Shown: positions 14,682-64,000 of the stretch, piece by piece
Position numbering within the stretch: the stretch's first letter is position 1
Layout of the letters: every line of letters begins with the position of its first letter
DNA from: Isoetes taiwanensis
Lineage: Eukaryota > Streptophyta > Lycopodiopsida > Isoetales > Isoetaceae
Reading direction: 5' to 3'
DNA length: 64,000 nucleotides
Assembly: GCA_021234155.1 (NCBI GenBank)
Contig: JAJEKV010000028.1
Span: forward strand, 17,100,825-17,164,824
The notes under the pieces: generated by a model
Databases searched by the model: none
What the model saw: the letters and a program-made list of their open reading frames with translations, nothing else
Told to the model about the DNA's origin: nothing
Position numbers and translations under genes: made by a program

Positions 14682-14834
14682 TCTACAGAAATTTGATATT
14701 AAGACACATAGATTTGAAAGAACAAAGAATTTTGAAGAAAGACGTCAAAAAGCAAAGGGCAATAACTTTGAAAAAGATTTAAACAAGCATGGATTTCAAT
14801 GAAGGAATTAAAAAGATCAAAAATCAGCATGCAA

Positions 14835-14890
14835 GAATTTGGACAAGGAATAGAGTTACAGGAATTTGGACAAGGAATAGAGTTACCTCA
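14835..14890. repeat. 27-bp direct repeat
   Basis: GAATTTGGACAAGGAATAGA followed by GTTACAG/GTTACCT occurs twice in tandem upstream of the transposase. The same pair is present in copy 2 near 24553-24605. Confidence 0.7.
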
Positions 14891-15165
14891 ATCGAACATG
14901 CCTTGCCAAACACAATGCGTTCTCCGTCGTTGCCTTTGGCGGGCTTTGTATAGTCATCACATGCTTGTATGTCCAGCATGGCTTTTACGTGGCTCTAAAG
15001 GGGCGGGCAATAATATGATATCCATGCCTTGGCCACTATAACACCCTTCCCACGAAAGGAAAATTTAAAAGACGAGCGGGCACAAGTGTGATTCCACCAC
15101 TAGCGTCGTGCCACGTAGCACTATTTCAAACCAAGAAAGTAAACGATTTTTTTTTTTTTTTTTTC

Positions 15166-22110: not shown

Positions 22111-22543
22111 CCTTCCCCTTTTTTCTCTTCTTACCATCTTCTTTTTGTCTATCTAGAGATGAAGACGTGAGACATGGTGCAACAAGTGTAGGAGAAGTCA
22201 CACTTATGGCTGAAATGGCATTTGATATTGTGGAAGTGGTGTACTAGAGGCAAATTGATGAACCGGTAAAACTAGTGGAGAGGGTATACCAGGCAATGTT
22301 TGGGATTAGGAACCATCAGTCTGAAATCATTTTGTTGAGTGCATGGAACGTATTCTTTCTGATTATAGATACATGTTAATACAACAGATAACAATTTGGC
22401 AACTTATTATAAACAAGAGGAGTATTCACACGACAAAACAAGAGGAGGATTATAAATAAGAGCCATCATCAATAAGACAATTTGAACAAAGATAGCAAAT
22501 ACGTAATAAGCTTGTTAACAACAACAAATACTTTCTGTTTTGC

Positions 22544-24399: not shown

Positions 24400-24886
24400 T
24401 CTACAGAAATTTGATATTAAGACACATAGATTTGAAAGAACAAAGAATTTTGAAGAAAGACGTCAAAAAGCAAAGGGCAATAACTTTGAAAAAGATTTAA
24501 ACAAGCATGGATTTCAATGAAGGAATTAAAAAGATCAAAAATCAGCATGCAAGAATTTGGACAAGGAATAGAGTTACAGGAATTTGGACAAGGAATAGAG
24601 TTACCTCAATCGAACATGCCTTGCCAAACCTGTGCGTTCTCCGTCGTTGCCTTTGGCGGGCTTTGTATAGTCATCACATGCTTGTATGTCCAGCATGGCT
24701 TTTACGTGGCTCTAAAGGGGCGGGCAATAATATGATATCCATGCCTTGGCCACTATAACACCCTTCCCACGAAAGGAAAATTTAAAAGACGAGCGGGCAC
24801 AAGTGTGATTCCACCACTAGCGTCGTGCCACGTAGCGCTATTTCAAACCAAGAAAGTAAACGATTTTTATTTTTATTTTTTTCTTC

Positions 24887-27097: not shown

Positions 27098-28453
27098 AGA
27101 ACCCCTGAACAATATTCGGCAGTGCTGCACCTAGGGTTCAATGAATGGATCCAAGCTTTTTCTAATATCAATCGTGTGGGGGATGATGTTGATTAAATTG
27201 TACAAGTTATTGACACAATATACAGCAGTCTACCAGACAAAATATATCAATGGACAATTGAGGAGGACATGTGCAAAAGTCAACATCTGGCAGCACTGCC
27301 TGCCCTGGAAAAGGCATACAAAGTTAAGAAGAAAGATAAGACCATGGAGGTCATACAAGTGGATGATACAGATGGTGCAGATGACCCCTTTGATTCCCTA
27401 CTCACTGTTAAGGATAAAGCGGACCTTAATGCCGAAGTTAACAACTGCAGTGAAGTGCACAATAGTGAATTTGAATTTACACTTAATAACTGCCTAAATT
27501 TTCTTATTATACCAGGGCGTTTAGTAGAAAGCCACGCGGTGCTATGCAATCAGGGGATCTGGAGGACCCGAAACTTTGGAGCACTGGCTCCCATTAACAG
27601 GGATACTTGGATTATTCTCGGAGGTATTACTAAGAATCAGGCTGAGGCTGCAAGTGTGGCTGCCAAGGCAATGGAAAAGTTTGTATCAATGGAGGAAATA
27701 AAATGCAGCATTGATACAAGATTTTTTGATAAGAAATGCACTAAAAGCAGTTACATGTATGTTAGTCAGAAAGGTCATATGACCTATTCATCAATTGATA
27801 GAAATGAGTTCTACCTCAAAAGACTATGGAGGACCATGTGCCCGTATATTAAGTGCATCTGTGATGATCGTGGAAAGAAGAAAAGCAAAAGTGACGCATG
27901 CAATGACAACATGACCTGGATAGATCACGCAGTATGGTACATGCTAAACAATTTGGAAACTATTTATCCTAACATGTCTGTTGCTGCACAGGTTGTAGCC
28001 TTTAGGGGGTTCCTTAAGGGACCTCTGAAAACTAGCATCATGGGATACTTATCCTACTTGGAAGTCAGGGGAATTTTAATACACATGGCACTCAAGTTTG
28101 CTGCAGACCCATGGTGTGATCTTAAAATCGGCCTGTACAAATGCAAAATGGTTGAACTCTGTAGCAAAACAATCAGGCCCACTTCTAAGGAGACCAGTAA
28201 GGCTGCTAGCAACTTCAGTAGGCAGTCTGGAAGGAGCATGGAGAGTCCTTCTGGTAGTACGCAAAGTGTGGTGACTAGGCCACCAAGAATCACCATTAAA
28301 CCGACTTTTGAGACAGCAAGTGAATCGGAGAATGCATCGATTGAATGCATTGGCACCCAGGCCGCCATGGAGCATTCTGTTACCAAAGCAAGGAGTACTG
28401 AAGCAAGAAGAAATATTGATGATGCCAAGGACGAGCTCATATATCAAATATAG
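26915..28453 (+). pseudogene. RT element first internal ORF, one in-frame TAA
   Basis: The frame runs from inside the left repeat (GKGTTYDVILPKWNK...) across the repeat/internal boundary to 28453, with a single TAA at 27194-27196 after GDDVD. The later part (27269-28453, 394 codons) is open. Residues CSIDTRFFDKKCTKSSYMYV and a Ser/Thr-rich tail are visible, with no domain I can name. The same TAA occurs in copy A, so it predates the duplication. The ORF lies directly upstream of the RT and may be its gag-like or N-terminal partner. Confidence 0.5.
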
Positions 28454-28670
28454 GAAAAACGGTATGATACTAAACGTAAAAAGTTTTATTTATATACCTA
28501 TTGGTTGAAGGTCAAGTACCTTAAAAAACTCTATTTGATGAGTATAAACTACTGCCATTTGGCCACAAAAACAGAAAAACAGATTCCAGTACAATGTATT
28601 GGAAGAACCAGATCCCGATAAATGGGCTTAGCTTTAGTTTTAATAAGTGGGTTATGTTGATGTTTTACAG

Positions 28671-30738
28671 ATATTTAAGACCATTAGCAGGAGTTGTCAG
28701 GGGAGGTTTTATTTGGTTGATAACAAACCTAAAAGCAGTACTAGGGTGATACATTGCAAATTCTTATCGAAAATACAGGATAAGATATGCTTACCTAGAA
28801 TATTTCAAAAGGTTGCTGTAGAATGTTTTGGGGAAGCAGGCCAGAACATGATGAAGGCAACCATGTTTGGATGAAGTACATTGAGAATCTTAAGGACATG
28901 TTCTATAAACCCTTCTACATCTTTGCCCAAGATAAAGAAGTCCCATGTCCTTGCAAGAACCCCAATCTTGCCTCTTTCATTGACCCTGATATTGGTCACA
29001 TAAGAACGACCAAGTTGACCATCATTAGGAACAAAATGCTCAGAAATCTGTTCAGCAAAGGCCTTAATCATATACCCGATATGGTACAAGTGGGTAAGGA
29101 GTTTAAAACAGAGATTGAACGAGTATGTGACGCATTTTTTGATGCACACAGATTCACGTACCCTGATATTGGGGATGATGAAGTTAGCAATTTCAAGGCT
29201 AGGGTTGTTGATATTGCTGCCAGCAGGATCAGTATTGCACTAAAACTTGAAAGTACCAAAAAATTCCCCATGATGGATGATGCAGTTATCAAAAATGCTG
29301 ATTGGCTCATTAAAAACTTTTACATTGCTGGAGTAGACAAAGCTTCTAATAACCCATCCTTTATTTGTCCTACGCACATTAGAATGATGGCTCTTGAACG
29401 CCTTAATGGCCCTGACTTTCAGCCTATTCTAGATACACATGTGGAGTTACAGACCAAAATTAAAAGTAGCATTCAAGAAATAATTGGGTATATTGGCTTT
29501 GAGTCGGAGAGACTACCATATTTACTAGGGGTTTTTAAAGCGCACAAAAAAGACTATAGGTGGATAACGAATGCCCACAATACCATCTATACCGAAATCT
29601 CTCAGATAGTCACTGCTGGATTAAATAACATATTGAGTAATTGGCCTGAGATCACCAGAATGTTATGTGCCAGCATACATACGATGATGCCTGGCAAAGT
29701 TAACTCATGTTGGGTTGTTAACTCCATTTTTGATGTGGTGATTAATCTTCCTCCCAAAATACATGAAATTTTCGTAGCAGATATCACTAGATGTTATGAA
29801 AATATCCCATTAACTGGTGATAGAGGGATATGCATGATAATTGAAAATGTTATAAAAGCTGCATGGAGATGGCAGAAAAGTTTACACCAAGGCTATGATT
29901 TATGGTTAAAAAGAGGCAGCAATGGCTTTGTAGTCAAGTGGTTCAAGACTGAACCTAAAGGGAAGTGCTGGTCCAGACTTGGGATGGAAAAATTCATCAA
30001 GGCCAATCATTGGCTACTCTCAAATTGTGTAATTGCCATGGGTAATAGCATGTGGCAGCAGGTATGTGGGATCCCAATGGGCTTCTCTTGCAGCCCTAGC
30101 TGGTGTAACTTGTATCTAGCCTGGTTTGAGGCTGACTTCATCAAAACATTAGCAAGAGGTGGGAAGTTTAAGGAGATAAGCATGTTCAAAGATATGTTCA
30201 GATATATTGATGATCTATTAGCCATCAATTGCCCTATTATTAGAGACTTTTTGAAGGTCGTGCTGGAATATGAAAAAGACCAAATTAGCATATATGATAT
30301 GAGGAAATTAGGGATTAAAGAAGAAACTACTTTTCATGAGAAATATGGGCAGGAAAATAAATGCAGTTACAGGGCCAATTTCCTAAATATGACCATAGAA
30401 TTAGTTAACAATCTGAATGGCCTGTACCAAACCATTAGATACGACAAAAGGGATGTGTTACCGTTCAAAGCACTAAAGTTTGTGCATGCTGATAGCTGTA
30501 GACCGTATCACCAAGCCAGAAATGTTATATATCTCAAGTCCTACCGTATATGTATGTTAATTCGTGTCCTATCAAAGCAGCAATGGACATTGCCGGTCTC
30601 ATTAGAAGCTTCAACAACAACGGGTTTGATGTGCATGGGTTAGTGAAGAAAGTCACAAAGTACATCATGGAAGGATGCTTCCCGGGATTGAAGTTTGACA
30701 AGCAAGCTTTACTACAAGAAATTGCAACCTGCTTTTAG
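28671..30738 (+). CDS. reverse transcriptase, non-LTR type, about 660 residues
   Basis: Blocks in order: GRFYLVDNKPKSSTRVIH (about 28700); CPCKNPN...DIGHIRTTKLTIIRNKMLRNL; a DKASNN block (residues 170-176 of the frame from 28823); LPYLLGVFKAHKK; first catalytic Asp in VADITRCYENIPL; WQQVCGIPMGFSCSPSWCNLYL; the catalytic pair in RYIDDLLAI; and FLNMTIEL...IRYDKRDVLPFK as thumb-proximal region. Frame 28823-30643 is open for 606 codons. A one-base shift near 28835 separates it from the upstream block, but copy A has the base that restores the frame. Another near 30540 separates the C-terminal 62 codons (30550-30738). A possible acceptor (TTTTACAG) precedes 28671. Function: RNA-templated DNA synthesis for the element. 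Confidence 0.8.
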
Positions 30739-30929: not shown

Positions 30930-33160
30930 CTTAAAAGGCATTTGTATTATGTGATAGGTGACATGATTGGATGACCCAGGACGAAAGACCATTAGCAAGG
31001 AATACCTTGAAAATATATTAGAACTTAAGCTTGTAAATATATGCCACATAGTGTATACATGTAAATATTAGCATGTAATAATTAGGATGGCAGAAATAAA
31101 GTATAGTAGACCCCCAGATGTGAAAATAGGAAAATTAAAAAAGGAAAACGTAAGGTTTTTTAACATTTGAAAAGTAAAATTAAGGGATAAGGATTCACCT
31201 AACTTTTTTAGGGCAGAGCGCAGTAGTGAATGGATTGTGACGGAACTGAGGCAAATCCGACAGGCTATACATAGATATGGATTTGATGCGGATTTTTTAG
31301 ATAAAGGAATTGCCGAGAAAAAGAGTTGACAGTTCACTGAAGCTAAATGGTAATGGTTCTGACGGTTCACTGAAGCTAAAAGGTAAGCTAAAAGGTAATA
31401 GTTGCAAACTCATATGGGCAAAGCCTAGGGCATAAAATCGACCTACGGGCTACAAGGGATAGTGGAGAGGCTGATTTGAAAGCCTGGATTGCCAGATTCA
31501 CACACTTAGACTGGCAGTGAGTCAAACCTTTAAGATCACTATGCCATTGGTTTAAAGCACACCTTAAGCAGAAGGCGGATTATATGAAGGAATTTGATTC
31601 AGATGGGTACCCATACAGTTCAGACAGTGAGTCGATACTAGAGGAAGAATGGCTTAATGCTGAAATCCAAGCTTGCTTAGAAAGTCTGGAGGATTGCAAT
31701 ATGGAAGCTGGTAAGCATGGGGGGATTAAGCGCCCAGGGCAGAATACAAATGTTTCAGGATCTAACAAGTATGGTGGCAACAACAAGCACAGTAGAAATG
31801 AGGACATGCATGGTAGTGCAAGTTACAAAAACGTGGTTCCAGATTCGCAAGACGAAGACTATGATTATGAAATGGAAGATAATCAGGTTTGGCTGAACAC
31901 TTGTATGATTGCACAACAGCTTATATGGGCTATTCTAAAAATTATTATTACATTGATTTCATGTTATTGTTTAGCAGATTTCTTAACTAGGTATGGCTTG
32001 GGGTTAAAAAGGGTTACAAAAGGTGATCAGCGAAGAGCTGAGAAACCTTATGTACCTTTTGGCCCCTCACCCTTTACCATTATCATGCTAATGTGGTGTT
32101 GGTTGGCTGCAGGTACCGGTTTCTCCTCTTTTTGTTCTCTTTTTTGCTTTCAAGTTCAAGATCTGGTTGGGAAGAACAGTTGATGAAGGAAGGTTCTAGC
32201 AGCAGCTCGAAGTAAATGTTACAGGTGAATATTATTAAAGGGAGGTCTACCTAACTGAATCATTTCTTCCTCGGAATTATAAGCATGTCTAAGTATTTAA
32301 ACTTGAGCAGCTCATTTTGTTGAATAGATGCAAAAATCTGTTTTATGGAGCTCAAGGTCTGATTGTATTTATAGGCTTTGTTCATGAAAGTAATATATTT
32401 GAAAGTAATTAAAACAGTATATTAATATTAATAGAACAGAGTACACTTGGGTCTGGATATTAATACAGAAGGTATTTGAACATGTTTGTATATTCCATAA
32501 ACTGATATAAGGCACATGAAATATTAATCATGTTTTACACTGACCAACAGTATAAGATTGTAGTCCATTAGGCCTAAACAGTACTGAATTTGATGAAAGG
32601 CTCGGTGCATAAAAAATAAAGGAATTGAACATATACTTAATGTAATTAAATGGCACACTGGCTTGAAGGGTGTAATTGATTAACATAGTTTAAATGGATC
32701 TTTGAACCATGTTATAAGAGTTTGTGGATAAAGTGCCATCATGGATCTTGATCCTAGTATGGACAGATAATACTGCAACAGGGATTGACTTGTGCAGATG
32801 TCATGCTAGTGGACTGTGGTTTAGACTAGCGTGGACTGGATTTTTTTAGGGATTTCTGTTCCTTGGTTATACCAGGGTCACTAAATCCTCAAACTCGGAG
32901 ACTTGGTTCATGATAAATACAGTTTGCTATCAGAGTGTGTGACATAATGATTATTTTCCAGCATTTTTACTTACTGGTTGACTGACATACAGGGTAAGGG
33001 TACAACATATGATGTGATTCTACCCAAATGGAATAAGGAGCTTGTTGATATTGGCTACAGCACATTCAAGACTGAAGTGCCAAGTTATGCAGTACAAAGT
33101 ATTTTATGTTGCATCAAGGATATTAGGGCGCATGAATACATATTACAAAAGGAGATGGCC
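30930..33160 (+). repeat. right LTR-like direct repeat of the RT element
   Basis: 2231 bp, nearly identical to 24887-27097. It differs by scattered substitutions and a small rearrangement near 32395-32470, where a TATTAATA-containing segment is duplicated with an added GAGTACACTTGGGTCTGG stretch. It ends at GGAGATGGCC, where the sequence switches to an FCP1-like coding fragment instead of the internal region. Confidence 0.8.
31584..32183 (+). CDS. unknown 199-residue protein, right-repeat copy
   Basis: Second copy of the protein at 25542-26117, starting MKEFDSDG instead of MEEFDSDG. It has a handful of residue changes and an eight-residue longer C-terminus (ends QDLVGKNS). Both hydrophobic segments are conserved. 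Conservation of the open frame in both repeats suggests recent duplication or selection. Function unknown. Confidence 0.5.
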   Translation: MKEFDSDGYPYSSDSESILEEEWLNAEIQACLESLEDCNMEAGKHGGIKRPGQNTNVSGSNKYGGNNKHSRNEDMHGSASYKNVVPDSQDEDYDYEMEDNQVWLNTCMIAQQLIWAILKIIITLISCYCLADFLTRYGLGLKRVTKGDQRRAEKPYVPFGPSPFTIIMLMWCWLAAGTGFSSFCSLFCFQVQDLVGKNS

Positions 33161-49215: not shown

Positions 49216-49281
49216 GGTTGAAGGAAGAACAAACAACAAATACAAAAAGCCCTAAATCTACCCAAAAACAAGTTTAGACCT

Positions 49282-52200
49282 GCTAGAACCTGGCAACTCA
49301 TAGGGTTTATGTTTCGGAGGCTCTATCCTTATCAGATTTGACTAGGACCTTCATTGCGGTCTTGAGTAGAGGGGGTGTTGGCGCTTGAGCACGGACCCTA
49401 AAACCACCCGAAGCGGCTTGCCCCAAAAGTCCTCTCCCGAAGGCCACGCGACGGGCGGCAACTTCCCTTCTCCGGAACCGTGATCTGTCTCTGCCAATGG
49501 ACTCAGAACGTCGACATTGCCCTAGGCACCAAGTTTTGTGGCCAGAAGCCCACCCCTTCTCGAAGAAGCGCCAAACTATCTCATGTGCAACACACTCGCA
49601 GTCAATTGGCCTAGGATGTGGGCTGGCGAATCTGCAATGTAGAGGCGTAAGTGTTTCTTTCTTTTGCAAAACTGGCCGTGTAACTTGGTCCCTAAGTTAA
49701 TTTTGGCATTCGGACGATGTGGCGGTCGAATCGCCATTTCTGAACCTCACTTGAATGTCCTAGCGACAAAACACTTTGGCCAGCGGTTGGATATGTTCTC
49801 CCGGGCCGGATGTTGGATTTATTTGGACCTTCTCGAACCGGGTTCCTTGAACAAAGGATTCAACGGTTGGATCACGGGAACCGAGATCGAGAGTGTGTGG
49901 TCTTTAAGCGTCGCCCCGTGGGGAAGCGCTGCCCGAAAGGCTGCCTCGGGAAGCTTTTGGGGCTCGCCTCACGGGGTTCGGACTCTCCCCTCTAATGAGG
50001 AGGCCTTTCAAGGTCCTGGCCTTGTTTGACTTGGGCAAGTGTGCCCGGCTTCGGCTGCCCAACAACACGCTGCCGGACCGTTCTAATGCAAACTATTTGA
50101 TCTAAACCTTATCCAAAATTTTTGAAAGTTGGCCTGTATGTTGGCGATGACTTAGGAAGCTAGCTAACAAAAATCAGAATTTAAGTCCGTACTATGCATT
50201 AATTACAATTTATTTAATGTCTTGCTACCGCAAAAGTGGCCCTTGACTTCTAACCGCCACAACGGGAGGAGTACAGGTCCAAACTCCATTATGTCAGTTC
50301 CCCTTGCTTCGCGTTCTCAACTGCATGTGATCGGCTATGTCCCAAGTGCAAAAGATCAAAACTCGGCACCCAAAACGCAAACCCTGCTAGAACCTGGCAA
50401 CTCATAGGGTTTACGTTTGGAGGCTCTATCCTTGTCGATTTGACTAGGACCTTGCGCGTGTCTTGGCGTGGAGGGGGTGTTGGCGCCGAGCACGGACCCT
50501 AAAACCACCGGAAAGCAGCTTGCCCCAAAAGTCCTCTCCGAAGGCCACAGCGACGGACGGGCAACTTCCCCTCTCCGGAACCGTGATCTGTCTCTGCCAA
50601 TGGACTCAGAACGTCGACATTGCCCTAGGAACCAAGTTTTGTGGCCAGAAGCCCACCCCTTCTCGAAGAAGCGCCAAACTATCTCATGTGCAACACACTC
50701 GTAGTCAATTGGCCTAGGATGTGGCTGGCGAATCTTTAATGTAGGGCGTAAAGTTTTTCTTTCTTTTGCAAAACTGACCGTGTAACTTGGTCCCTAGGGT
50801 AATTTTGGCATTCTGGACGATGTGGCGAAGTTGAATCGCCATTTCGGAGCCTCCGCAATGTCCGAACGACAAAACACTTTGGTTTCTACAATGTCGCCCG
50901 CAGGACGCTTCGCGGTTTGATATGTTCTCCCAGACGGATGTTGGATTTTTTTGGACCTTCTCGGACCAGGTTCATTGAACAAAGGATTCAACGGTCGGAT
51001 ACGGGAACCGAGATCCGAGTGTGGTCTTTAGCGTCGCCCCGTGAGCACCGCCGAGAAAGGCTGCCGGGAAGCTTTTGGGCTCGCCTCCTGGGGTTCGGAC
51101 TCTCCCCTCTAATGAGGAGGCCTTGCAAGGTCCTGGCCTTGTTTGACTTGGGCAAGTGTGCCACCGGCTGCCCAACAACAAAGCTGCCGGACCGCTCGAA
51201 TGCAAACTATTTGATCTAAACCTTATCCAAAATTTTTGAAAGTTGGCCTCAGATGTTGGCGATGACTTAGGAAGCTAGCTAACAAAAAAAATCAGAATTT
51301 AAGTCCGTACTATGCATTAATTACAATTTACGAATGTCTTCCCTACGCAAAAGTGGCCCTTGACTTCTAACCGCCACAACAGGGAGTATGATCCAAACTC
51401 GATTCAATGGGCCCCTTGCTTCGTTCTCAACCGCATGTGATCGGCCACGTCCCCAAGTGCAAAAGATCAAAACTCGGCACCCAAAATGCAAAACCCCGCT
51501 GAAACCTGGCAACTCATAGGGTTTACGTTTCAGAGGCTCTATCCTTGTCAGATTTGACTAGGACCTTGCGCCGTGTCTTGACGTAGAGGGGGGGTGTTGA
51601 CGCCAGAGCACGGACCCTAAAAACCACCCGGAAGAAGCTTGCCCCAAAAGTCCTCTCCCCAAGGCCCTGGCGACGGGCGGGCAACTTCCCCTCTCCGGAA
51701 CCGTGATCTATCTCTCGCCAATGGACTCGGCGTCGACATTGCCCTAGGAACCAAGTTTTGTGGCCGTAAGCCCACCCTTCTCGAAGAAGCGCCAAACTAT
51801 CTCATGTGCAACACACTCGATCCAATTGGCCTAGGATGTGGTCTTTGAATCCGCAATGTAGGGCGAAGTGTTTCTTTCTTTTGCAAAAAAACCGACGTGT
51901 AACTTGGTCCCTAGGGTAATTTTGGCATTCCGACTTAGGAAGCTAGGTGACAAAAATCAAATTTAAGTCCGTTACTATGCATTAATTACAATTCACGAAT
52001 ATCTTGCTCTTTGCAAAAGTGGGCCTTGACTTCTAACCGCTGGGGAGGAGTACAGGTCCAAACTCCATTCTTTCAGTTCCTCTTGCTTCGCGTTCTCAAT
52101 CGCATGTGATTGGCCATGTCCCAAGTGCAAAAGACCAAAACTTCGGCACCCAAAACGCAAAACCCCGCTAGAACACGGCAACTCATAGGGTTTACGTTTG

Positions 52201-52414
52201 AGGCTCTATCCTTGTCGATTTGACTAGGACCTTGCGTCGTGTCTTGGCGTAGAGAGGGGCGCTGACGAAGCACGGACCCTAAAACCACCCGGAAGCAGCT
52301 TGCCCCAAAAAGTCCTCTCCGAAGGCCACGGCGACGGACGGGCAACTTCCCCTCTCCGGAACCATGATTCGGCTCTGCCAATGGACTGAGAACGCCGACA
52401 TTGCCCTAGGGACC
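49282..52414. repeat. tandem array of about 1.1-kb units
   Basis: Units begin GCTAGAACCTGGCAACTCAT at 49282, 50386, about 51498 and 52167. The first two are 1104 and 1112 bp, the third is shortened to 669 bp by an internal deletion, and the fourth is cut at 52414 by the Gypsy LTR. Shared landmarks per unit include ACCCTAAAACCACC, GTCGACATTGCCCTAGG and CTATCTCATGTGCAACACAC. No domain is recognisable on either strand. The units differ mainly by small indels at CAG/CTG positions. Confidence 0.85.
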
Positions 52415-54105
52415 TGTGACGCTCCCTGAACATATACGACCCCCGGCCGTATACATACGGGGACTTTCCCCTCCCATGGCGACTATATATCGCCCGCGGC
52501 GAGGCCCTCCGGCCTTAACCGGCCATCTATAGAGAGATGCCCGAGTGAAGGACACGGAGGTGTCATTCGCCCACGCCTTCAGGGACTCCTACGCTATGGA
52601 AGCGTGAATACATGTTAGCACACAAAGATAAATCATATATAAATAACCACCACGAAGGGTGGCGCATCCATCCAAATACCAACGGCAAAGAATATGCATC
52701 TAAACTAAGAAAACACCCCAAACCCCAGGTTCTACCCCGGTTCAGACTCCTGTGAGGATAGACTGATGGCTCGGCCTCAAGAGATCAGCGACGTAGATAT
52801 AACTGGCGCTATCGGCATAGAACATCGGCTAGGGTTGTCCACTCCATCCGCCCCTCCCCGTTGCACACTTTGCAGATGGGTCGATTCACGCTATGGCTTC
52901 GCTATAGCCTTCCGGAGACGCAGGCTCGAGGTATCACCCTACTGAGCCTACTCCAGGGTTCATGACGCCCCGGTCCGATGAGGCAGGTCGTGGAAGCGCC
53001 CCTTCCGTGATCATCAAAGGGTTCCATGGGTGAGCTAGAGAATACGTGCATCATCGGCCCCAGCATCCGTGCCGACTTACTCACCCTAAATCTACTCAAA
53101 GTGCAAGGTGCCCCATAATGGGTCACACCACTACACCCGTGGAGTGTCGATCCATACCCGCCCCCACGCGGACCGGCCATCGCCTAGCCCACCGTAGGAG
53201 TCTCGGGAGCCTTTATGCTCGTGCAAGACCCCACCCCCACTTCACCACCACTGTGTCCCTTCTTTGGTGCTAAGCCAATCCATAGCATCTATGACCCGTG
53301 GTCTCTTGTACACAAAAATGCCGCATCTAATAGGATAATGCAGGGGCTCTATCTAGGAGCATACTACAATACTACAATAAATGGGCTCGAGGGTCTCTTC
53401 CCCCTCGTAATCCCCCATCTCTCGAATGCTAACTAAACAGAGAACTACCAATCCATACTTTGAGCAAAACCAGAATCAAAATATAAAGAGAACTTACATT
53501 TACAACCAAGGGTTAGTTCCTACCACCAAAACACAGAGAAAGCAGACAAGACAACACACAAGTGCCCATCTGGGGCGCTACACTAGAATTCACAGCTTTC
53601 CTAGCCACCCACCTGAGTTCTGGCTGGACCCGTTACCATTGGGTGCTTCCATCTCCTGGGTCTTGGGGTTCAGCTTCAGCTACACAGGTTAAAGTGCGTG
53701 GTATGGTGGCGCTCTGCTTGGTATGGTGGCGGCACCTTGGTATGGTGGCGCCGGTTAAGGTGGTAGGCGCCAGCCCCCGTTCCTTTTGGACGAATTTTGG
53801 GAGTCAATTAGGGATAGGGATCAGGTTGACAGCCTAATTTGGAAGTCCCCATGCTGGCCAATCGATTTGGGCCAGGTGGCGCCTTCCCAAAGCATTAATT
53901 AGCCTAATTAATCCATTTAACCCTTAATTCCCTAAGTTATAGGTTATTATTTTTAATGATTAAATTAGCATAATCCCTTTTAGGACAACCCCCTAGGTTA
54001 CGATACCCCATGGTGGCGTACCTTTAGTGGGTGACGTGTCAGTATATTTATACGTATACCATATAAATACGTTACGTATACCGTATAAATACGTGGAACG
54101 TCACA
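52415..54105 (-). repeat. 3' LTR of the H3-carrying chromovirus
   Basis: 1691 bp. On the plus strand it begins TGTGACGCTCCCTG and ends GGAACGTCACA. Tandem ATAAATACGT/ACGTATACC words near 54045-54095 can fold into hairpins. It is homologous over much of its length to the solo LTRs at 10752 and 20150. Confidence 0.9.
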
Positions 54106-54116
54106 TTCTCCCCTCG
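54106..54116 (-). other. polypurine tract of the chromovirus
   Basis: Minus strand CGAGGGGAGAA directly before the 3' LTR. This is the expected primer for plus-strand DNA synthesis. Confidence 0.75.
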
Positions 54117-54643
54117 TTAAAAATAATGTTGTCCTCAGCATTGGGGTTAGTTGTTTAGAGACAGTTACTTAAAGAACTGAATTAGAAAGCAGTACATCGA
54201 CGTTAAAAGTATAACATTAATATGTTGAAATTATAGCATTCCGGACAGTAATACATTGAAGTTGAAAATATCAAAGTGCAAGCACCAAAGTGCATTTTAC
54301 AAAGTTCAGGGACCGGAGTCCGATTTAAAAACATCATAGACGACGAAAATCACACATGTAAACAAAGCGAATCCGAAAAGTTGGGTCATCAGCAACCCTC
54401 TATACATGGGCAGGTCACGAACTGCTCACTGGCCTGCACATGTCAATATATCAGTATATATCAATAATATAATTAGATTGTGGTTGAAGGGACCACCCCC
54501 TATAAATAAAAGAAAACCTATGTACAAGGAAACCTATCATGACTATAGTTTGCAATTCATTGCGGCATAAGGAATGGTGAAGTTCCCATTATAGCCAAGA
54601 CGAACGCAGCCTATCATCTACATGCTTTCGAAGCAATGCGTGG
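54117..54643. other. chromovirus 3' untranslated region
   Basis: Between the pol stop and the PPT. Only short ORFs, no recognisable domain. Confidence 0.5.
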
Positions 54644-57600
54644 TCATGTCAACACTAACAATACACCACGTCCTAGAGAACAGAAGGTGATCTCATCATC
54701 GGTAACTATTATTAAATACGATGCATCTACCCCTCTATTGCATGATTCGCGGCGAATCAAGCCTTCAAGCTTACCGCCGGAAGCGGGGTTGATAGCATCG
54801 TTGATGGTGCGGCCTTGAGACTCGCGCATGAAGTCCGGATAGTGCTTCTCAAGGTCTATCTTCATCACCCAAGTAGCATCTTCAACTGGTAAGTGCTTCC
54901 ACTTAACCAAGTATTGCAACATTTGAGTCCTTCTGGTCTGTTTATAAGCTCGATCAAGGAGAGCTTCAGGCACTATCTCCAGCTGCTCCTCTGTCATTTC
55001 TAGGAGGGTTGGGGTATCCAAAACCTCCTCTGGATCGGGTGGCAAATCCAAGCGATATGCCTGTTCTCCAACACGTTCAGTAATCTTGAACGGCCCAGCC
55101 CATCTGGGTGCCAACTTCTTGCAGTTACCAATCTTAAGCTTGGCTTGCTTTACTTTGATCTTAAGCCAAACCGATTCACCCACCTGAAAGACTCGTGGGG
55201 TTCTGTGTTTATCCGCTACACTCTTCTGACGACTGCATGCAGCTAATAAGTAACCACGAACTTCTTCAACCAAAGCTTGCATTTCGAGAAGGAGTTGTTG
55301 AGAAACCTCCACTTTAGAAACAGGATTATGCCATGTGTCTGGAGTAAGGCATTGATAGCCGTAATTTATCATAAAGGGAGACATTCTGGAGGACTCCTGT
55401 TTCATACTGTTATAGGCAAACTCTACCAGATAAATATAGTCAGCCCATTGTGATTGTTTACTCCACACATAACTTCGTAGCATATCCTCTATAATACGAT
55501 TGGTACGTTCTGTCTGACCATCCGTTTGAGGATGATAGGCCGTGCTCATAGCAAGCTTGGTCTGGATGGTGGCGAAGAAATCTTTCCAGAATGCGCTTAC
55601 AAACTTGGGATCCCTGTCGGATACAATAACTCTTGGCATTCCGTGCAACCTGAAAATCTCCTTTGCAAATAGGAGGGCGGTGTCAAAGGCGGTGTCGGTA
55701 GTCCGACATGGCAAGAAATGAGCCATTTTCGACAATTTGTCGACCACTACCATTAATGCATCATATCCACGGAGAGTACGTGGAAGGCCCACAATGAAAT
55801 CCATGGTTATCACTTCCCACTTTGCGTTGGGCACATCCAAAGGTTGCAACTCTCCTGGAACTCTTAATTGCTCAGCCTTGGTTTGTTGACACACCTGACA
55901 CTGCTTAATGTATCTAGCAATATCCTTCTTCATCGAAGGCCAAAAATAACTGGAGCGGATCTTAAAGTAAGTCTTCATAAAACCTGCATGTCCAGCTATA
56001 GGGCTGTTGTGTGTGTCATGGAGAATTAGCTTACGGACTCCTGAAGTCCCAGGTACACACAACTTATCTTTGTAATATAACAAGTTGCCCTCTTTCTTAT
56101 ACGAACGGAATGCTTCGCGTTCTTTGTCTGTGCGTGCTTCTTTATTCAAACTACCCCAAATATCACAGAATTCGGGATCTGTGGCTAAGGTCTGTTCTAT
56201 TTGCTTCCCAAACTCACTGGTGAGCGTGGAGATTGCGTTACAATGGGTTCGGGTTATCAAAGGATGTCGTGACAACGCATCCGCAACCACATTGTGCTTC
56301 CCAGGCTTATACATAATCTCGAAGTCGTATTCCTCTAGAAATTCCATCCATCTTCTCTGATGGAGATTGAGATTTGGCTGGGTGGATAAATAACGGAGAC
56401 TCTGATGATCCGTATCCAGCTGAAATCTTCTACCAAGAAGGTAGTGTCTCCAAATGCGCAGAGCGCGGACAACTGCTAACAATTCCTGATCATGGGTAGG
56501 GTATCGCTGCTCCGTCTCATTCATTTTCTTTGAATCATAGGCAATAACCCTCCGCTCCTGCATTAGGACTCCACCGGTAGCAATCTTACTAGCATCCATT
56601 GCCACCAATTTGTCCTTTTCAGGATCAGGCAAAGTGAGGACTGGTGCTGACGTTAAAGCATCCTTAAGCTTCTGGAAGCCTACCTGGACTTTTGTTTTCC
56701 AATGTTCCATCCAATCCTTCACCTTTTCGTGCTTTGTGAGATCAGTAAGAGGTGCGGCAATCGTTGCAAAATCCTTAACAAACTTCCGGTAATATCCTGC
56801 TAGTCCCAAGAAACTCCGGACTTCTGAAACATTACCCGGAATAGGCCAATCCTTTACTGCTTCTATTTTTGCTGGATCCGTAGCAATTCCCTCTGCCGAA
56901 ATGATATGGCCCAAATAATCCACCTTGGGAGTCGCAAATTTGCACTTAGAGAACTTGGCAAAGAGCTGATGACGTCTGAGCTTTTGTAGGGCCAAACGAA
57001 GATGTTTCTCATGCTCCTCCAGCGTCTTACTGTAGATGAGAATGTCGTCGAAGAAGATAACAACAAAATCATCCAAGTATTGTCGGAAGACATCATTCAT
57101 CAACCGCATGAAAGTTGCAGGAGCATTAGTTAATCCAAAAGGCATAACGGTAAACTCATAATGCCCATATCTAGTGCGAAAAGCAGATTTATGGATGTCC
57201 TCCTCCTTTATTCTTATCTGATGGTATCCGGAGCGTAAATCAATCTTTGAGAAATATTTGGCCCCTTGCAACTGGTCCATTAGATCATCTGCCCTAGGCA
57301 AAGCATAGCGATTCTTGATGGTATGCTTGTTGAGCTGCCTATAATCAATACACATCCTCAAGGACCCATCCTTTTTCTTAACAAAAAGGATAGGGGCGCC
57401 AAAAGGCGAAACACTAGGCCGAATGAAACCTAGGTTTAGTAACTCCTGAAGTTGCTTCTTAAGCTCTGCCAACTCCGGGGGACTCATACGGTACGGGGCC
57501 TTACTGGTAGGCTTAGTACCCGGTTCTAGAGCTATCTCACATTCTACCCCTCTAAAAGGAGGAAGCTTTTGAATCTCATCTGGAAAAAGATCGCTAAATT

Positions 57601-57814
57601 CTCGGAGAAGGTTAGCAATCCCTTCCGGCAAGGTGTCAATTACTTGCTTCTGCTTAGCATCTGACTCAATAGAGGCAAGTCTAATGACGCAAAGGAGTTT
57701 TCCCTGGCGTAACGCTTTTTCTAACTGCGCGATGGACATAGACTGCATAATAGGGTTGAATGGATCACCTTTTATAGTCACGCGTGCTCCGTTAGCGGCG
57801 TTGAAGGTAACCTC
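54644..57814 (-). CDS. pol: chromovirus Pol: RT, RNase H, integrase, chromodomain
   Basis: Open for more than 1045 codons after an in-frame TGA at 57815-57817 that separates it from Gag-protease. [23 protein letters not shown], catalytic Asp in [14 protein letters not shown] (about residue 181 counted from 57781) and the Asp pair in [13 protein letters not shown] (about 245). RNase [17 protein letters not shown] and TDHQSLRYL. Integrase: zinc region [12 protein letters not shown]...CQVCQQTK, catalytic residues in [20 protein letters not shown] and [15 protein letters not shown]-terminus: a chromodomain-like stretch [10 protein letters not shown]...[17 protein letters not shown], which in chromoviruses directs integration to particular chromatin. 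All catalytic residues are present. Reverse-transcribes and integrates the element. Confidence 0.93.
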
Positions 57815-59260
57815 TCATTTTTCGCAGTCTATATTGGCCTTTGCAGATGCCAAAAATTCCATCCCAACAATAAGATCATATTTGCCAATGTCCATTAACT
57901 CGGCACCCAATGCAACTGGTGCACCTGGCAACTGCATCTTAAGGTTAATGCGGCGGCCATGAGTGTGCCTAATCTTGCCACTGGCTAACGTGACTGGCTT
58001 TGGTCGGGATCTCAACGTTTCAAGCTGCAATACCTGGGCCATTCTAGGAGAAGCAAAATTATGTGTACTACCTGTATCCATCAAAATTATGAAAGGCTTA
58101 CTGTCTACTTGGCCTATGGTGGAAATAACAGAAGGCTGGCTTTCAACGTTGCCAGTTTCAATGGTTGCAAGAATATGAGACGCACCGTGAATGTACTCGG
58201 GAGCCTCGTCCTCGACATGTGGTGTGGACTCAAGATCATCCCAATCAAGGTCGGCCATGGCCAGTTGGGCAGTCTGCGTGACATAAGGACAATTCTGCAT
58301 GAAGTGGCCGGGTCGCATACACCTGTAGCATGCCTTATCTCGGCGGAGCTGTTCTCGAGCCTCTTTTGGAATAGACTGTAAAAGGTTCCGAACTTCCTTG
58401 CCGACGTTATTCTGCTTATCGGGCGTGCTGAAGGTGACTTTCTTTTCCTGGCGGCCATAAGAGTTCTGCTGAGAGGGCCCCGGACTTGGTGAGCGGGGTT
58501 TGTAAGGTGTGGACGGCCGTGGCTGCGAGTAAGGAGGAGGACGCGGATACTGGTTCCTTGGTGTGTCCTCCTCGAGGCTTAATGCCTTAGCCTCAGCTTC
58601 TGCAACTGATTTCGGGTCTATGGCCTTAACCATTCGTTTAATGGATGGGGCCAACCCTTCGATGTAGCCCTCCACCGCCCTCTTTTCATTCATCCCTGGT
58701 ACGTACAGCCTCAGGCGCATGAATTCATCAGTATAGGCCTGAACTGACATCCCCTTCTGCTCTAACCGGTAGAAGGTTTGGATTTGTTGGCATTTGTGCG
58801 CACGAGGCACGTAATGCGACTTAAAGGCTTTGGCAAACTTCCTGAAGTTGCATCTGCTCCTATCCAGATGTTTGGCTCTGGCATAGCCCTTCCACCAAAT
58901 ACGGGCAGCTCCTGTAAGGTTTGTGGTGGCAACCTTTCCTCAGATCCTTTTCACCATCCCATAGGATTTCCCAAATTCCTTCATCTCGCCGAGCCAGACT
59001 CGCATTTCAGCCCCCTCTAGATTTTCCATCAAATTGAGCCAATTTCCTATTCTTCCATATGCTGGTTATGGCTGTATCAACTGTTTTTCGGTACTCCTTA
59101 TCCCGACGATGTGCATGGACACCCGATGACATAGACGAGTCGAGGGACCTCGTAAGTTGCCGACCGAGAAGATGTGGCACTCGCCCTTAGAGGAACCTCG
59201 ATGACGCTTTGGGACCGGTGCCTCTTCTTCTACGGGTGCGGGATCGATTCAAAAGCGTAA
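57815..59260 (-). pseudogene. gag: chromovirus Gag C-terminus and aspartic protease, gag frameshifted
   Basis: The open part 58810-57815 holds the capsid C-terminal half (FYRLEQKGMSVQAYTDEFMRL), a Pro-rich linker, zinc knuckle CYRCMRPGHFMQNC, and protease with DTGSTHNF and IVGMEFL. It ends in DCEK-TGA in frame with Pol. Upstream, at about 59070-58800, the capsid core is recognisable (FDGKSRG, GAARIWWKGYARAKHLDR, FAKAFKSHY) but split among frames, so this copy probably cannot make full Gag. Confidence 0.85.
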
Positions 59261-59262
59261 GG

Positions 59263-59502
59263 TCAGCGTGGGTGGGGACTTGGCGGTAACGGAGGTAACT
59301 CTGGTCCATCCTCCTGGACATGCTGCGGTGGGTTGGTATTCAACACATAAGTCTGCAACTCAACTAGTTGCCTCTTCATCAACATAAGTTCCTCGCCGGG
59401 GGTTAACCTCATCGGCATTCGAGGGTGTTCCGCCAGCGGCATTATGCGGCAACCGCCTATATTGAGCATAAGAAGATATAAGCAGAATTTCAACAACATC
59501 AA
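59263..59502 (-). pseudogene. chromovirus Gag N-terminal segment
   Basis: Frame with MPLAEHPRMPMRLTPGEELMLMKRQLVELQ, a Pro-rich stretch, then a stop. The position just upstream of the capsid fragments and the heptad-like MLMKRQLVELQ suggest the Gag N-terminus. It is separated from the capsid by stops and frame changes. Confidence 0.5.
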
Positions 59503-59703
59503 GTCTCACAATAAGATCATTTTAGGTAGTACTGAAGCAAGAGTGAATAAGAGAAGACAAGAGAAAAGATTTTGATTATAAGTCAAAACAACTGTTACAT
59601 AGAAGAACTTCACACTGAAGATAGTTATCAACTTAAAGTCATATAATACACAAGTGGATTAGTCACACTGAACATAGTACAACAAAACTGAGGGCGTCCG
59701 GAC

Positions 59704-60200
59704 CTAGGGGTTCGCAAAAGGGTACATAATGGAATAGCGAACACTTTCGCGTACAGCTCTGATGAGCTTGTAACGTGCCCAGGCCTGGACGATGACAGGC
59801 TGATAATCCCATGTGGGGCTAATAATAAGGAGATTGAAAAGCCTCCTTAATGCATAGAAGATTTGCCACAGGTGGTCATTGGCATCCTCGAAAGCTTCGT
59901 GCCTGGACATACTCCAATAATCCCAAAAGTCGCGGGGTCCGCTTTTCAGTCATCAAAGGCCCGTTCTCGCAGGATATTAACTATCTCCATGCCCTTGTCT
60001 GGATCATAAGGCTCTTCCGGCTCTTCGAGTTCTTCGGGTTCATCCATCTGATAGTCACCCTCTCGTTCTGGATATTCTCCATATCTCTGGCCATAATCTT
60101 GTTCAGGAGGTCCTTGATCATCCCTCGGTGATCCTCTCCTCGTACTCCTCAAGTGTCTCTTCTGCAAGACAGCAGGAATAAATATATATACATTGAACAA
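59704..60200 (-). pseudogene. ORF-D, acidic, broken
   Basis: Two frames: 60200-59946 with an acidic stretch YQMDEPEELEEPEEPYDPDK, and 59910-59704 with HEAFEDANDHLWQIFYALRR. A possible splice acceptor (TCTTGCAG) precedes the first. I recognise no family. It lies between ORF-C and gag on the same strand. Confidence 0.4.
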
Positions 60201-60397
60201 TTTCCTTCTACCCCACTTTAAGGAAGAGAATTAGACATTGAAGAGAAAAGACAATCCAATGGTTTTCAATAATAGAAGAAGATACAAGGAAAAATCCTGA
60301 ATATATATAAGAAAAGAGTACATAGATTATGCCCATTAAAGGTAATGGCAATCAAAAATGACATAAAAGTAGATATAATTGTCTGCTTAAGGTAGAA

Positions 60398-61783
60398 CTA
60401 AGAGGTCGACCCTTCAACATCTTGTGCTTGAGTGCCAAACTCGGGCTCCGGTCGATGCTGTAGGAGTAGCACGCTAGGATTAACTGATGAAGCTATCTCT
60501 GGAGGAACATTTGTAGCCAATGGCGCCGCAACCAGCAGACTCATGTTCATCCAAGAACCAATCTCATGATCAAACACTGCAATGGCTAGATCACGATTCA
60601 CTAGGATGACCTGCTCAAGGTTAGGAGCTAACTTCTTATGGCCGACTGTGGTTGAAAGTGCCCTAAGTGCCCATACCGCCACCTCTGCTTGAGGTGCAAT
60701 TGCCTTAGCAAAGAAAAGAACCTGTCTGCTTGTAAAAGCCGACAAGAAAAACCGGGTAATATGGCATTTCAGCCCCTGAACCATTGGATGGGTTGAAGAG
60801 GCCAACTCAGACTCCAAATTCTGGGGCAGTTCCTCCTCCATAGCAAAGTCCTTCTCCTCCTGAGCATACTGGTTCTCATCACATAAATCCTCCATGGTTG
60901 GGTCGTCTTCAATCTTGACGACGACGTCGTTGATGTTGGGCACATGTGGCCCCGTAGCCTGAAAAACCGATTCAGGAATTGAAGATGGGGTACCCTGAAT
61001 CATTAACTGGCGTAAGGATAAGAGTGTGCTGATAGGCTCAACATCAAGAGGCTGATAGTTGAGCAGTTGGTGTATCTCCGGCTCATAGACGGGACGAGAA
61101 TAATCGATGAAGTCATGCTGCCCCTGACAATACTCGGCCAGCTCATAGAGAAGATGAGCGGTCTTCTGCTTGCCCTTATTGGCGATATGCTGATACGCCC
61201 ATTGAATGTCGCTCAGCAGCAAATAGTCTTGATCCCCAACCTTGATGGTAGGAAGCGAGCTTAAGCCGACAAGAGCTTGGCCCTTACTACGGGGTAGAGG
61301 CTTCTCTTTGGCCAATGCCCTCCATCTTACGAAGTCGGCATAGCTTATCTGCTCATCCTCCTCAGGATCCGGAGGAAGTGGGGACTTAGCTTGCTCCAAG
61401 GCCGTGTCGGTACCGTCAATATACCTATCCATGATAAGAGCAAGGGCAAACTGGGCATCAAAGTACAGCCCATTAGAGCCACAGTCAATGATGGGGGCGT
61501 GCTTAGCACGTCTGAGAATGCCCGTAAGAATATCATAACTATGGCGATCATCCCCAAACATGTGCTCTAAGATGTCCCTATGAAGATAGGGTTGAGGCGG
61601 CTCCCCGAAAAACTCTGCCTGGGGCAAGATTTCTTCATCATAGAACTCTAGAAAGGTCGCATAGTCAGGGTGTGCACGCATGTTGTCGATGAGATCGACT
61701 GTAGACTGCAACATGGGATCCAAGAGAGGGTAGGGAACCTGAGGATCCCATTGCTCGCCTCCCAGGCGGCCAGCGTACTCCAT
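60398..61783 (-). CDS. ORF-C, unknown 461-residue protein of the chromovirus
   Basis: Open frame from MEYAGRLGG. The same frame is open 25 codons further upstream, but that part looks like leader sequence. It is acidic and Pro/Leu rich, and mostly helical by composition. Segments such as YADFVRWRALAKEKPLPRSK and an acidic patch KIEDDPTMEDLCDENQ are visible. There are no zinc, protease or nucleic-acid motifs and no match I can name. The intact long frame in an element with a broken gag suggests it is a genuine gene. It may be an accessory protein or an unusual Gag-like structural protein. Confidence 0.6.
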   Translation of the reverse strand: MEYAGRLGGEQWDPQVPYPLLDPMLQSTVDLIDNMRAHPDYATFLEFYDEEILPQAEFFGEPPQPYLHRDILEHMFGDDRHSYDILTGILRRAKHAPIIDCGSNGLYFDAQFALALIMDRYIDGTDTALEQAKSPLPPDPEEDEQISYADFVRWRALAKEKPLPRSKGQALVGLSSLPTIKVGDQDYLLLSDIQWAYQHIANKGKQKTAHLLYELAEYCQGQHDFIDYSRPVYEPEIHQLLNYQPLDVEPISTLLSLRQLMIQGTPSSIPESVFQATGPHVPNINDVVVKIEDDPTMEDLCDENQYAQEEKDFAMEEELPQNLESELASSTHPMVQGLKCHITRFFLSAFTSRQVLFFAKAIAPQAEVAVWALRALSTTVGHKKLAPNLEQVILVNRDLAIAVFDHEIGSWMNMSLLVAAPLATNVPPEIASSVNPSVLLLQHRPEPEFGTQAQDVEGSTS

Positions 61784-61894
61784 TACTGCAGACGGACGAT
61801 GGGAGGAGGAAGAAAACAAAAGGAGTAAGAAATAATGAAACCCTAAAATGAATGTCAATAAAGTTTCTGGGCACGGCGTTCGAGGCGCCAGCTC

Positions 61895-62067: not shown

Positions 62068-62628
62068 TCATGGCCGTTCCCCACGGATCCGGCGCGCTAG
62101 CTGAAGGTCTTTTGTCATGATCGTTACTCGCTTGGCATGAATTGCACATAGATTAGCATCGCCAAAGAGGGCCACCAAATAGGCCTCGGCTGCCTCCTGG
62201 AGAGCTAGAATAGCATGAGTCTGAAACCGGAGATCTGTTTTGAATTCCTGGGCGATCTCTCGGACCAGACACTGGAAAGGAAGTTTCCGTAACAAAAACT
62301 CAGTGGATTTCTGATACTTCCTTATTTCCCTAAGTGCCACTGTGCCAGGCTTGTAACGATGCCTCCTCTTAGGCTGGGGTAGAGCTCCAGGAACAGTTTT
62401 CCCAGCTGTCCTTGGATGCCTGGCCTTTCGGATGACCTCATCTCGCCAGTTATCCCCTGCAGCCTTAGCGATACTTCCCCGAGCCCTGAGCTGATCCCTA
62501 TACTGAGCACCCGATCTTTGGGGTGTCTTCTTCTGTTTTCGGTGAGGGACACGAACTTCTGAAGGTGGCTGTTCTTGCCGGTGCCTTTCTTCCTCTTCTT
62601 TCCTCAACCGCTCTTTTACGTTTGCCAT
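62068..62628 (-). CDS. histone H3 (H3.3-like) with replaced N-terminus, inside a Gypsy element
   Basis: 186 residues. Residues 90-186 align without gaps to H3 positions 39-135. My recalled comparison with plant H3.3 gives about 13 differences in 97: R42K, L60F, I62L, R69C, D77E, S86T, V89I, G102A, E105G, T107A, P121T, I124L, A135P. Tyr41, His87 and Leu90 are the plant H3.3-type residues. Lys56, Lys79, Arg83, Cys110, His113 and Asp123 are kept. The tail is not a histone tail: residues 1-89 are charged and coiled-coil-like ([13 protein letters not shown]), then basic ([10 protein letters not shown]). ARTKQ and ARKS motifs are missing, though Lys36 is matched by Lys87. Loop 1 is canonical, unlike CENH3. 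No introns. The ATG overlaps the ORF-A stop (TAATG). A nucleosomal or chaperone-binding role is inferred. Confidence 0.93.
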
Positions 62629-63401
62629 TACCTCGTTTGCATTCTCTTCAAGGCTTGCTCCTGTTCTACTTGCTGTTGACGGATGGAATCCTCCCGAAGC
62701 TTAGCAGCCTCCTCTGTCAATTGTGTTGCCTTCTGCGATTGCGCCAGGAGTGCGGCTTGCTCCTCTGCTTGCTTTTCCCTGGCTATCCGAATCTCTGTTC
62801 TTCTGTTAAGCTCCAGGAAGTAGCGTGGAGGGTTGGCTTGCATGTCCTGCTCGACAGCCCGCTGAAATTGGTCGGTGAAGAATGAGGGTGTTCCCGCTTC
62901 CCAGAGAATACGGTTAGTCTCCTCTTCATATGAAAAAGATGGGAGAATGTAGGATCCCCCATCAAAGAGGCACATCCCGTTTCCCAGGTAGCGGTACCCT
63001 GAAGCTGGGTCGTCCGATGCTAACCACTGTAGGTCTGCCTCTTGGGCCATTTGCAGACTGTTTTGGGCCTGCGTTTGTAAGGCCTCTTCTTCAGCTTGTT
63101 CATCCTCTCCTGGCGGAAAGAACCGTGCATACTTCTGGACACCATCTTCCTGTTCAATCACAATGCAGGTCTCCCGTATGGCATTGAGCTTAAGTACAAA
63201 GCGCTCATTATAGCAGAAGAGCAGGTATGGTATTCTGACTCCTTCGTAGAAACGTTTAACAAAATATTCCAGTATCTCCTCGGTTTTTGCCTCCGCTTCT
63301 GGCGATGGGTTTTGTTGTGGCAGCAGTTCGGCCATTAAAAACTCGATGAGAGTTTGAGAATGACGGGGCTTGCGCTTGTATACTTGCTTGACTGCCTCCA
63401 T
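62628..63401 (-). CDS. ORF-A, unknown 257-residue protein upstream of the H3-like gene
   Basis: First ORF after the PBS. Begins [21 protein letters not shown]. The N-terminal two thirds look globular ([40 protein letters not shown]). The C-terminal third is a Gln/Glu/Lys/Ala-rich probable coiled coil (about residues 195-255). Its stop codon overlaps the start of the H3-like ORF in TAATG, an arrangement used for termination-reinitiation in some retroelements. I recognise no family. The coiled coil continues in character into the N-terminus of the H3-like protein. Confidence 0.65.
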
Positions 63402-63873: not shown

Positions 63874-63885
63874 GCTCTGATACCA
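63874..63885 (-). other. primer-binding site of the chromovirus
   Basis: Minus strand TGGTATCAGAGC, complementary to the 3' end of initiator methionine tRNA, immediately inside the 5' LTR. Confidence 0.9.
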
Positions 63886-63886
63886 C

Positions 63887-64000
63887 TATGACGCTCCCTG
63901 AACATATACGACCCCCGGCCGTATACATACGGGGACTTTCCCCTCCCATGGCGACTATATCGCCACGAGCAGGGCCCTCCGTCTTACCCGGCCATCTATA
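63887..64000 (-). repeat. 5' LTR of the chromovirus, partial
   Basis: The first 114 bp match the start of 52415-54105 with few differences (a 2-bp TA deletion and changes around CGAGCAGGG). It continues beyond the window. Confidence 0.9.

Follow-up and report, generated by a model that had tools for sequence, protein, structure and literature searches.

Histones are thought of as a property of the host, and the silencing of retroelements works via the tails of histone H3. Viral genomes are known to encode histones as well, namely H4 in bracoviruses and histone doublets in giant viruses. Among mobile elements, hAT DNA transposons of Dothideomycetes captured and amplified histone H3, and the accessible part of the report on them describes these hAT-H3 copies as RIP-inactivated in Pseudocercospora fijiensis and potentially active in Pyrenophora tritici-repentis (PMC6710886). 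Ty3/Gypsy elements of orchids carry a 2-ODD (AlkB-like) ORF, and the accessible text of the same study, in which angiosperm LTR elements were screened, lists CHROMO, PMD, AIR1, AlkB, G-patch, KOW, ArgoL2 and B3 domains and names no histone (PMC9289625). A further report treats the chromoviruses of seed-free plants, among them Tcn1-type elements from lycophytes (PMC2864245). It is hence already known that a fungal DNA transposon has captured H3 and that plant Gypsy elements have acquired host domains, such gains being rare among LTR retrotransposons. Here we describe a chromovirus of the lycophyte Isoetes taiwanensis that carries an H3 histone fold as part of a fusion protein.

Structure of the element and its H3 fusion protein

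The window, i.e. the whole stretch of 64,000 nucleotides analysed, contains a Ty3/Gypsy chromovirus of 13.1 kb, whose coding strand is the minus strand and whose order on that strand is 5' LTR, primer binding site (PBS), ORF1, H3 ORF, ORF3, gag/protease, pol, polypurine tract and 3' LTR. The first 114 bp of the 5' LTR occupy positions 63887..64000, and the other 1558 of its 1672 bp lie beyond the window end in adjoining sequence that was read contiguous with the window (locus L029). The PBS (63874..63885, TGGTATCAGAGC), which we take to be of the initiator Met tRNA type, is followed by ORF1 (62628..63401), encoding an N-domain and a long helix that are joined to the H3 part in intact copies, and by the H3 ORF (62068..62628) as defined by the ORF list, Pfam and copy comparison, with a basic linker and an H3 histone fold of 96 codons (62074..62361; H39-R134 in H3 numbering). 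ORF3 (60398..61858) is open over 461 aa from its ATG and matched no Pfam family. The region of 5' gag and ORF4 (58940..60230) is not open in the window copy but is open in the relative L069, and it precedes the 3' part of gag with the protease (57815..58939) and an open pol frame for reverse transcriptase (RT), RNase H, integrase and chromodomain (54644..57814). A polypurine tract recognized by eye (54106..54118) and a 3' LTR of 1691 bp (52415..54105, reading TGTGACG...CGTCACA on the plus strand) complete the element, all of these features being on the minus strand.

The target site duplication GGACC is found at 52410..52414, and its second copy follows the 5' LTR outside the window. The insertion site is a tandem repeat with a unit of ∼1.1 kb (49237..52409), of which ∼190 bp resume past the other end of the element. 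As both GGACC and the repeat are present on both sides, this is a true insertion of 13.1 kb. An assembly join of a histone gene and an element, raised in the first-pass annotation, thus has a negligible probability, being refuted by GGACC on both sides and by ORF1 sequence adjoining H3 in all 20 other stretches examined. Gag, protease, RT, RNase H and integrase stand in Gypsy order, accompanied by LTR pair, PBS, polypurine tract and 5 bp target duplication. In Pfam searches the chromodomain scored 31.9 bits (cutoff 25.1), the integrase zinc-binding domain was above its cutoff and the integrase core, at 31.3 bits, slightly below (32.6). Gag has a CX2CX4HX4C knuckle, seen by eye and with Pfam E-values of 0.004-0.013, below the curated cutoffs. 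The LTR pair diverges by a K2P distance of 0.045 (BLAST alignment, slightly shorter LTR) or 0.063 (MAFFT alignment).

Elsewhere in the window, positions 10580-29733 and 30930-33160 form a tandem duplication with units of 9.4-9.7 kb that are 92-97% identical, the third copy being partial. Within it lie an ORF for a divergent reverse transcriptase (28823-30643; RVT_1 match weak) and a DDE_Tnp_4 fragment, with an NIF phosphatase fragment at the third copy. Positions 2783-4918 contain parts of a gene for a respiratory burst NADPH oxidase.

The H3 ORF, which runs from ATG (62628) to stop (62068) over 186 aa, matched the Pfam Histone family with 139.6 bits (cutoff 26.4; E 7.7e-41). Its top match among solved structures was the H3.3 chain 7ux9_E (E 5.7e-52), and H3 made up all 60 listed of its 177 PDB matches. 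Fold residues 90-185 differ from 7ux9_E at 12 of 96 positions. This identity of 87.5% agrees with the ∼87% estimated previously, and ORF, Pfam and PDB matches likewise confirmed that an intact H3-fold ORF lies between PBS and Gypsy gag on the coding strand of the element. The fold is hence above the curated histone cutoff with H3 as its nearest match, and a tree grouped it with land-plant H3 (see below). The canonical 38-residue N-terminal tail of H3 is absent from the fold and another module stands in its place; the linker resembled the H3 tail no more than shuffled linkers did in 18 of 18 proteins.

CENH3 is marked by a divergent fold and a longer loop 1. A CENH3 identity was rejected because the fold aligns to H3.3, the sequence with which it was compared in lieu of a host CENH3, over 96 residues without a gap and at the identity given above.

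Sister copies mostly read ORF1 and H3 as a single frame through the junction. A start-pattern scan found this fusion frame of 450-455 codons unbroken in 10 of 39 copies, one of which (L041) is out of register over ∼20 residues. In the window copy the frame starts at 63401 and its sole lesion is a 22 bp deletion at the junction, where the end of ORF1 overlaps the start of the H3 ORF as TAATG. The ATG of the 186 aa ORF is therefore a by-product of the deletion, and the ORF is the C-terminal fragment of a larger fusion protein that is split in this copy. Accordingly, what had been annotated as an intact histone gene is indeed an open reading frame, but not a stand-alone gene. The fusion protein consists of N-domain, long helix, basic linker and C-terminal H3 fold. 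AlphaFold modelled an N-domain block (residues 11-190) with pLDDT 65-87 and a helix (191-281) mostly with pLDDT 74-93, which looks like a coiled coil, and was unconfident on the H3 fold with the alignment of 18 sequences used. The N-domain matched no Pfam family above cutoff, and a search for its structural relatives gave no convincing match.

Genomic copies, subfamilies and origin of the H3 fold

The assembly searched comprises 1,658,258,908 bases in 1110 contigs. Using the DNA of the H3 ORF as query, 558 first-look candidates were obtained and 40 scored, window included; all 40 were matches, 86-100% identical, and lay on 33 contigs. The 39 other copies were fetched, 20 of them as 10 kb stretches and 19 as ∼1.4 kb. 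In the 10 kb stretches, H3 was preceded by ORF1 sequence in 20/20 and by an LTR in 17/20, and followed by ORF3 in 19/20 and by gag/protease or pol in 18/20. The parts missing were ORF3, gag/pol and LTR in L013 and the LTR in L012 and L021, while L026 has only 5' gag. Other Gypsy copies thus share the ORF at the same position, which the first-pass annotation had proposed as a check. N-domain sequence adjoins the fold in 38 of the 40 copies and the coil in all 40. The fusion frame is broken in 29 of 39 copies, six of 40 have a stop within the fold, and pieces of pol and gag carry stops too.

With a canonical H3.3 query, 9031 first-look candidates were found and 150 scored, namely 15 host H3 genes (97-99% identity) and 135 other matches (72-87%), many of which lie in open frames of 400-567 aa. 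Thirteen of the 135 were newly read, selected because their open frames were long or their ends unusual, while six others coincide with members of the 40 copies above. As all 19 non-host matches so examined were of the element type, we infer that the other 116 are as well. Three subfamilies were distinguished: subfamily 1 is that of the window, subfamily 2 has proteins of 409-419 aa and subfamily 3 one of 415 aa (L070, and L077 in part). In a subfamily 2 element (L065/L069) the order is unchanged; its ORF3 is 45% identical, an ORF4 is present, and its gag/protease and most of pol have 93% protein identity to the window, pol being interrupted. ORF4 of L069 is open and lies between the H3 fusion and gag. 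A further group (L107, L108 and L109) has the same N-domain with 39-42% identity to L070.

Between subfamilies, the proteins share 32-39% identity before the last 110 residues and 90-91% in the H3 fold, where 76-95% of silent sites differ and are thus saturated. For gag-pol, dS between L069 and the window is 0.83-0.87 and lower than for the 5' modules. Since gag-pol is closer than the 5' modules (ORF1-H3 and ORF3), these modules may have been exchanged between subfamilies.

In a tree of the H3 fold, a single branch set apart all 24 distinct element rows in each of 200 bootstrap trees (100/98), and they nested in a larger group of 31 rows that takes in Isoetes and plant H3 (97/93), although the fold offers few columns and the bootstrap had not settled. 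Their proximity to a host H3.3-like gene (L049) and to plant H3.3 was weak (87/63). Residues T86, I89, G105, A107 and L124 occur in 29 of 29 element rows and in none of the 15 host genes, and A102 in 28 of 29; outside the elements, I89 was found in two and L124 in one of 38 other eukaryote folds. Conversely, E77 is common to host H3 and 22 of the 29 element rows, as opposed to D77 in the 38 other folds, a pattern consistent with a lycophyte donor. Relative to host H3, silent sites have likewise reached saturation. One element clade and saturated silent sites between subfamilies point to a single, ancient and selected acquisition, and to judge from these sequences land-plant H3 was captured once, before the subfamilies split. 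The earlier suggestion of a recent capture does not withstand the saturation, either against host H3 or between subfamilies.

In plants, H3.3 is recognized by T31, Y41, H87 and L90. One of the 15 host H3 genes found (L049-L063) is H3.3-like (T31, H87) and 14 have A31 and S or T87, whereas Y41, L90, E77, an uninterrupted coding region and the start MARTKQTA are common to all 15. Of the three marks on which an H3.3 origin had been based, Tyr41 and Leu90 hence do not discriminate here and only His87 is informative; the elements have H87 in subfamilies 1 and 3 but F87 in subfamily 2, and position 31 could not be aligned. An H3.3 donor is compatible with the neighbours in the tree, albeit weakly. 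Capture through RNA, which the first-pass annotation saw as fitting the lack of introns, is not supported, since the host H3 genes found, among them the H3.3-like one, also lack interruptions, in a search that favours intronless genes and besides which host H3 genes with introns may exist.

Selection on the fold and the N-terminal tip

Pairwise NG86 estimates of dN/dS were pooled, with exclusion of codons with stops or indels; the copies had been picked for their DNA similarity to the window, a choice that enriches close copies without preferring silent to replacement changes. For the H3 fold, dN/dS was 0.042 (codon bootstrap 0.026-0.062) in 38 of the 40 copies, two with coverage under 90% being dropped, 0.033 in 10 intact copies and 0.046 in seven subfamily 2 copies. 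In a set of 21 copies, values of 0.054 for the fold, 0.16 for the N-domain and 0.255 for coil plus linker were obtained, and those of other parts were 0.101 for RT/RNase H (17 copies), 0.123 for ORF3 (20 copies) and 0.146 for gag (18 copies). In the 21-copy set, codon columns of the fold that have two states gave counts of silent against replacement changes of 15:5 where the rarer state occurred in one copy, 9:3 where it occurred in two or three and 11:0 where it occurred in four or more. Twenty fold positions, which we take to be contacts to DNA, H4/H3' or chaperones, were inspected in 41 stop-free element folds, a set outside of which the window copy, with its C69, falls. R49, R52, K64, R72, R83, F84, Q85, C110, H113, K115 and I130 were kept in all 41, R63, R116, K122, D123, L126 and R129 in 40, and R69 and T118 in 39, and S86 was replaced by T in all 41.

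A neutral captured gene fragment was rejected, as it would need a dN/dS near 1. The fold is thus better conserved than by neutral decay, as had been supposed, and none of the outcomes that the first-pass annotation had named as refuting came about, although many copies are broken. That the fold is a passenger, a host gene fragment conserved merely through recent capture, can be regarded as practically untenable: fusion frames broken as in dead copies of any element gene would suit it, but it is refuted by this low dN/dS, by silent sites saturated against host H3 and by three subfamilies in one H3 clade.

The subfamily 3 protein starts with MARTKGTKS and thereby resembles the tip of histone H3. 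Starts were fetched for 20 (40-92% identity) of 144 matches, and as 19 of these 20 reach query residue 1, the sample is biased to kept starts. All 12 matches of 51-92% identity, and 13 of 13 with L070, start with MARTKG, and in these 13 the codons for A, R, T and G vary silently (e.g. AGA, AGG and CGC) while the residues are unchanged. The remaining eight starts were MARTKST (two), MALTKST, MANTKST, MAHTKGT (two), MACTNGT and one that was unreadable. As a control, 13 further matches were fetched, none of which reaches query residue 1. MARTKG was present in L102 and L110, with a frame break beside each; L100 had ARTKGTKS without Met and L098 RTKGTKS out of frame; L099, L105 and L104 had MARIKG, MAHTKG and MAHIEG, respectively; L107-L109 had MPRFKLT; and the starts of L101, L103 and L106 were unrecognizable. 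In total, 17 of 34 copies read, L070 included, have a MARTK start. The subfamily of the window starts with MEAVKQ and similar, and subfamily 2 with MA[NI]TK or MTNTK, so that in these two subfamilies the tip has been altered or lost, and the MEAVKQ, altered and MPRFKLT starts indicate that it is not needed everywhere. The tip may be left over from the captured H3, whose tail would then have taken up the module, or it may have arisen later as a mimic. In subfamily 3, residues 7-8 are a Lys-Ser pair that could be a counterpart of Lys9-Ser10.

Possible functions and comparison with described systems

We propose that a Ty3/Gypsy chromovirus lineage captured land-plant H3 once and has retained it as the C-terminal domain of an accessory protein. 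The protein would be made and its H3 part would act as nucleosomal H3, pairing with host H4 and wrapping DNA, with the module in place of the normal tail and, in subfamily 3, an H3-like Lys4 tip (ARTK). As the normal tail is replaced, the usual Lys9 (ARKS) context is missing; chromatin on or near element DNA that took up the element-made H3, and with it the module, would be hard to mark by H3K9 methylation, and escape from this silencing would be the purpose. Selection over the whole fold argues for real use as H3 and not as a mere tag. We rate the chances of this explanation as even. A variant of it, in which the H3 variant sits in nucleosomes on element DNA and furnishes a chromatin of the element's own, bearing active rather than silencing marks, with a Lys4 tip in some subfamilies, appears rather doubtful, and slightly more so because Lys-Ser at residues 7-8 may yet function as Lys9.

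Alternatively, the H3 fold could anchor on H3-H4 or nucleosomes, with N-domain and helix bringing the Gag/integration complex and thus adding to the chromodomain. The same conserved contact residues, the long helix, modelled mostly at pLDDT above 80, as a candidate assembly surface, an integrase chromodomain hinting at an existing ability of such elements to read histones, and the location of the window copy within a tandem repeat all lend such a tether some appeal. We hold it to be a tentative possibility, however, as one insertion site was studied, no hot spot is evident among 40 matches over 33 contigs and an anchor has no obvious need for every DNA-contact residue. The position before gag, the basic linker, the helix and the kept DNA-contact residues would also suit a protein that compacts the RNA or cDNA of the element, either within virus-like particles or at nuclear entry, in the manner of a histone-like nucleocapsid; this is improbable, given that Gag already has its knuckle and that a packager could dispense with those faces of H3 that contact H4, H3' and chaperones. 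Very unlikely, finally, is a decoy or poison that ties up H3 chaperones, or the proteins that read and write Lys4 marks, by means of an H3-like protein with, in subfamily 3, the ARTK tip. Retention of this tip despite synonymous change and of the residues that presumably face chaperones is in its favour, but a decoy would have no need for the fold, DNA contacts included, to be nearly invariant throughout, and subfamilies 1 and 2 have altered or lost the tip. If the variant reading, in which the element furnishes a chromatin of its own, is correct, a retroelement encodes a histone variant within its normal life cycle. With an H3 whose tail has been exchanged and on which selection is no weaker than on RT, the element makes it directly testable whether chromatin can be written by parasites, and it is a natural experiment on the function of the H3 fold without its tail.

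A histone-encoding retroelement was not found in the openly accessible literature, as far as titles and abstract openings tell, and the word 'histone' is absent from the main texts of the Isoetes genome papers (including PMC8566536) and of a 2026 review on gene capture by plant elements (PMC13317346). With the non-seed-plant chromoviruses the Isoetes element shares the Gypsy pol and chromodomain in a seed-free plant, whereas the accessible text on those elements names no histone gene as cargo (PMC2864245). Like the orchid 2-ODD elements, it is a plant Gypsy retaining an extra host-derived domain, but that domain and its function, according to the accessible text, differ from the H3 fusion (PMC9289625). 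As in bracoviruses and giant viruses, a mobile genome encodes a core histone; those viral histones, however, belong to non-retroelements and are not H3 alone, and the N-terminal parts are unrelated. In fungal hAT-H3, too, a mobile element captured and amplified a histone H3 gene. The accessible part of that report describes a DNA transposon with H3 as cargo and neither a fusion protein nor selection on the element (PMC6710886), in contrast to the Isoetes element, which is an LTR retrotransposon with a fusion ORF whose H3 fold is under strong purifying selection.
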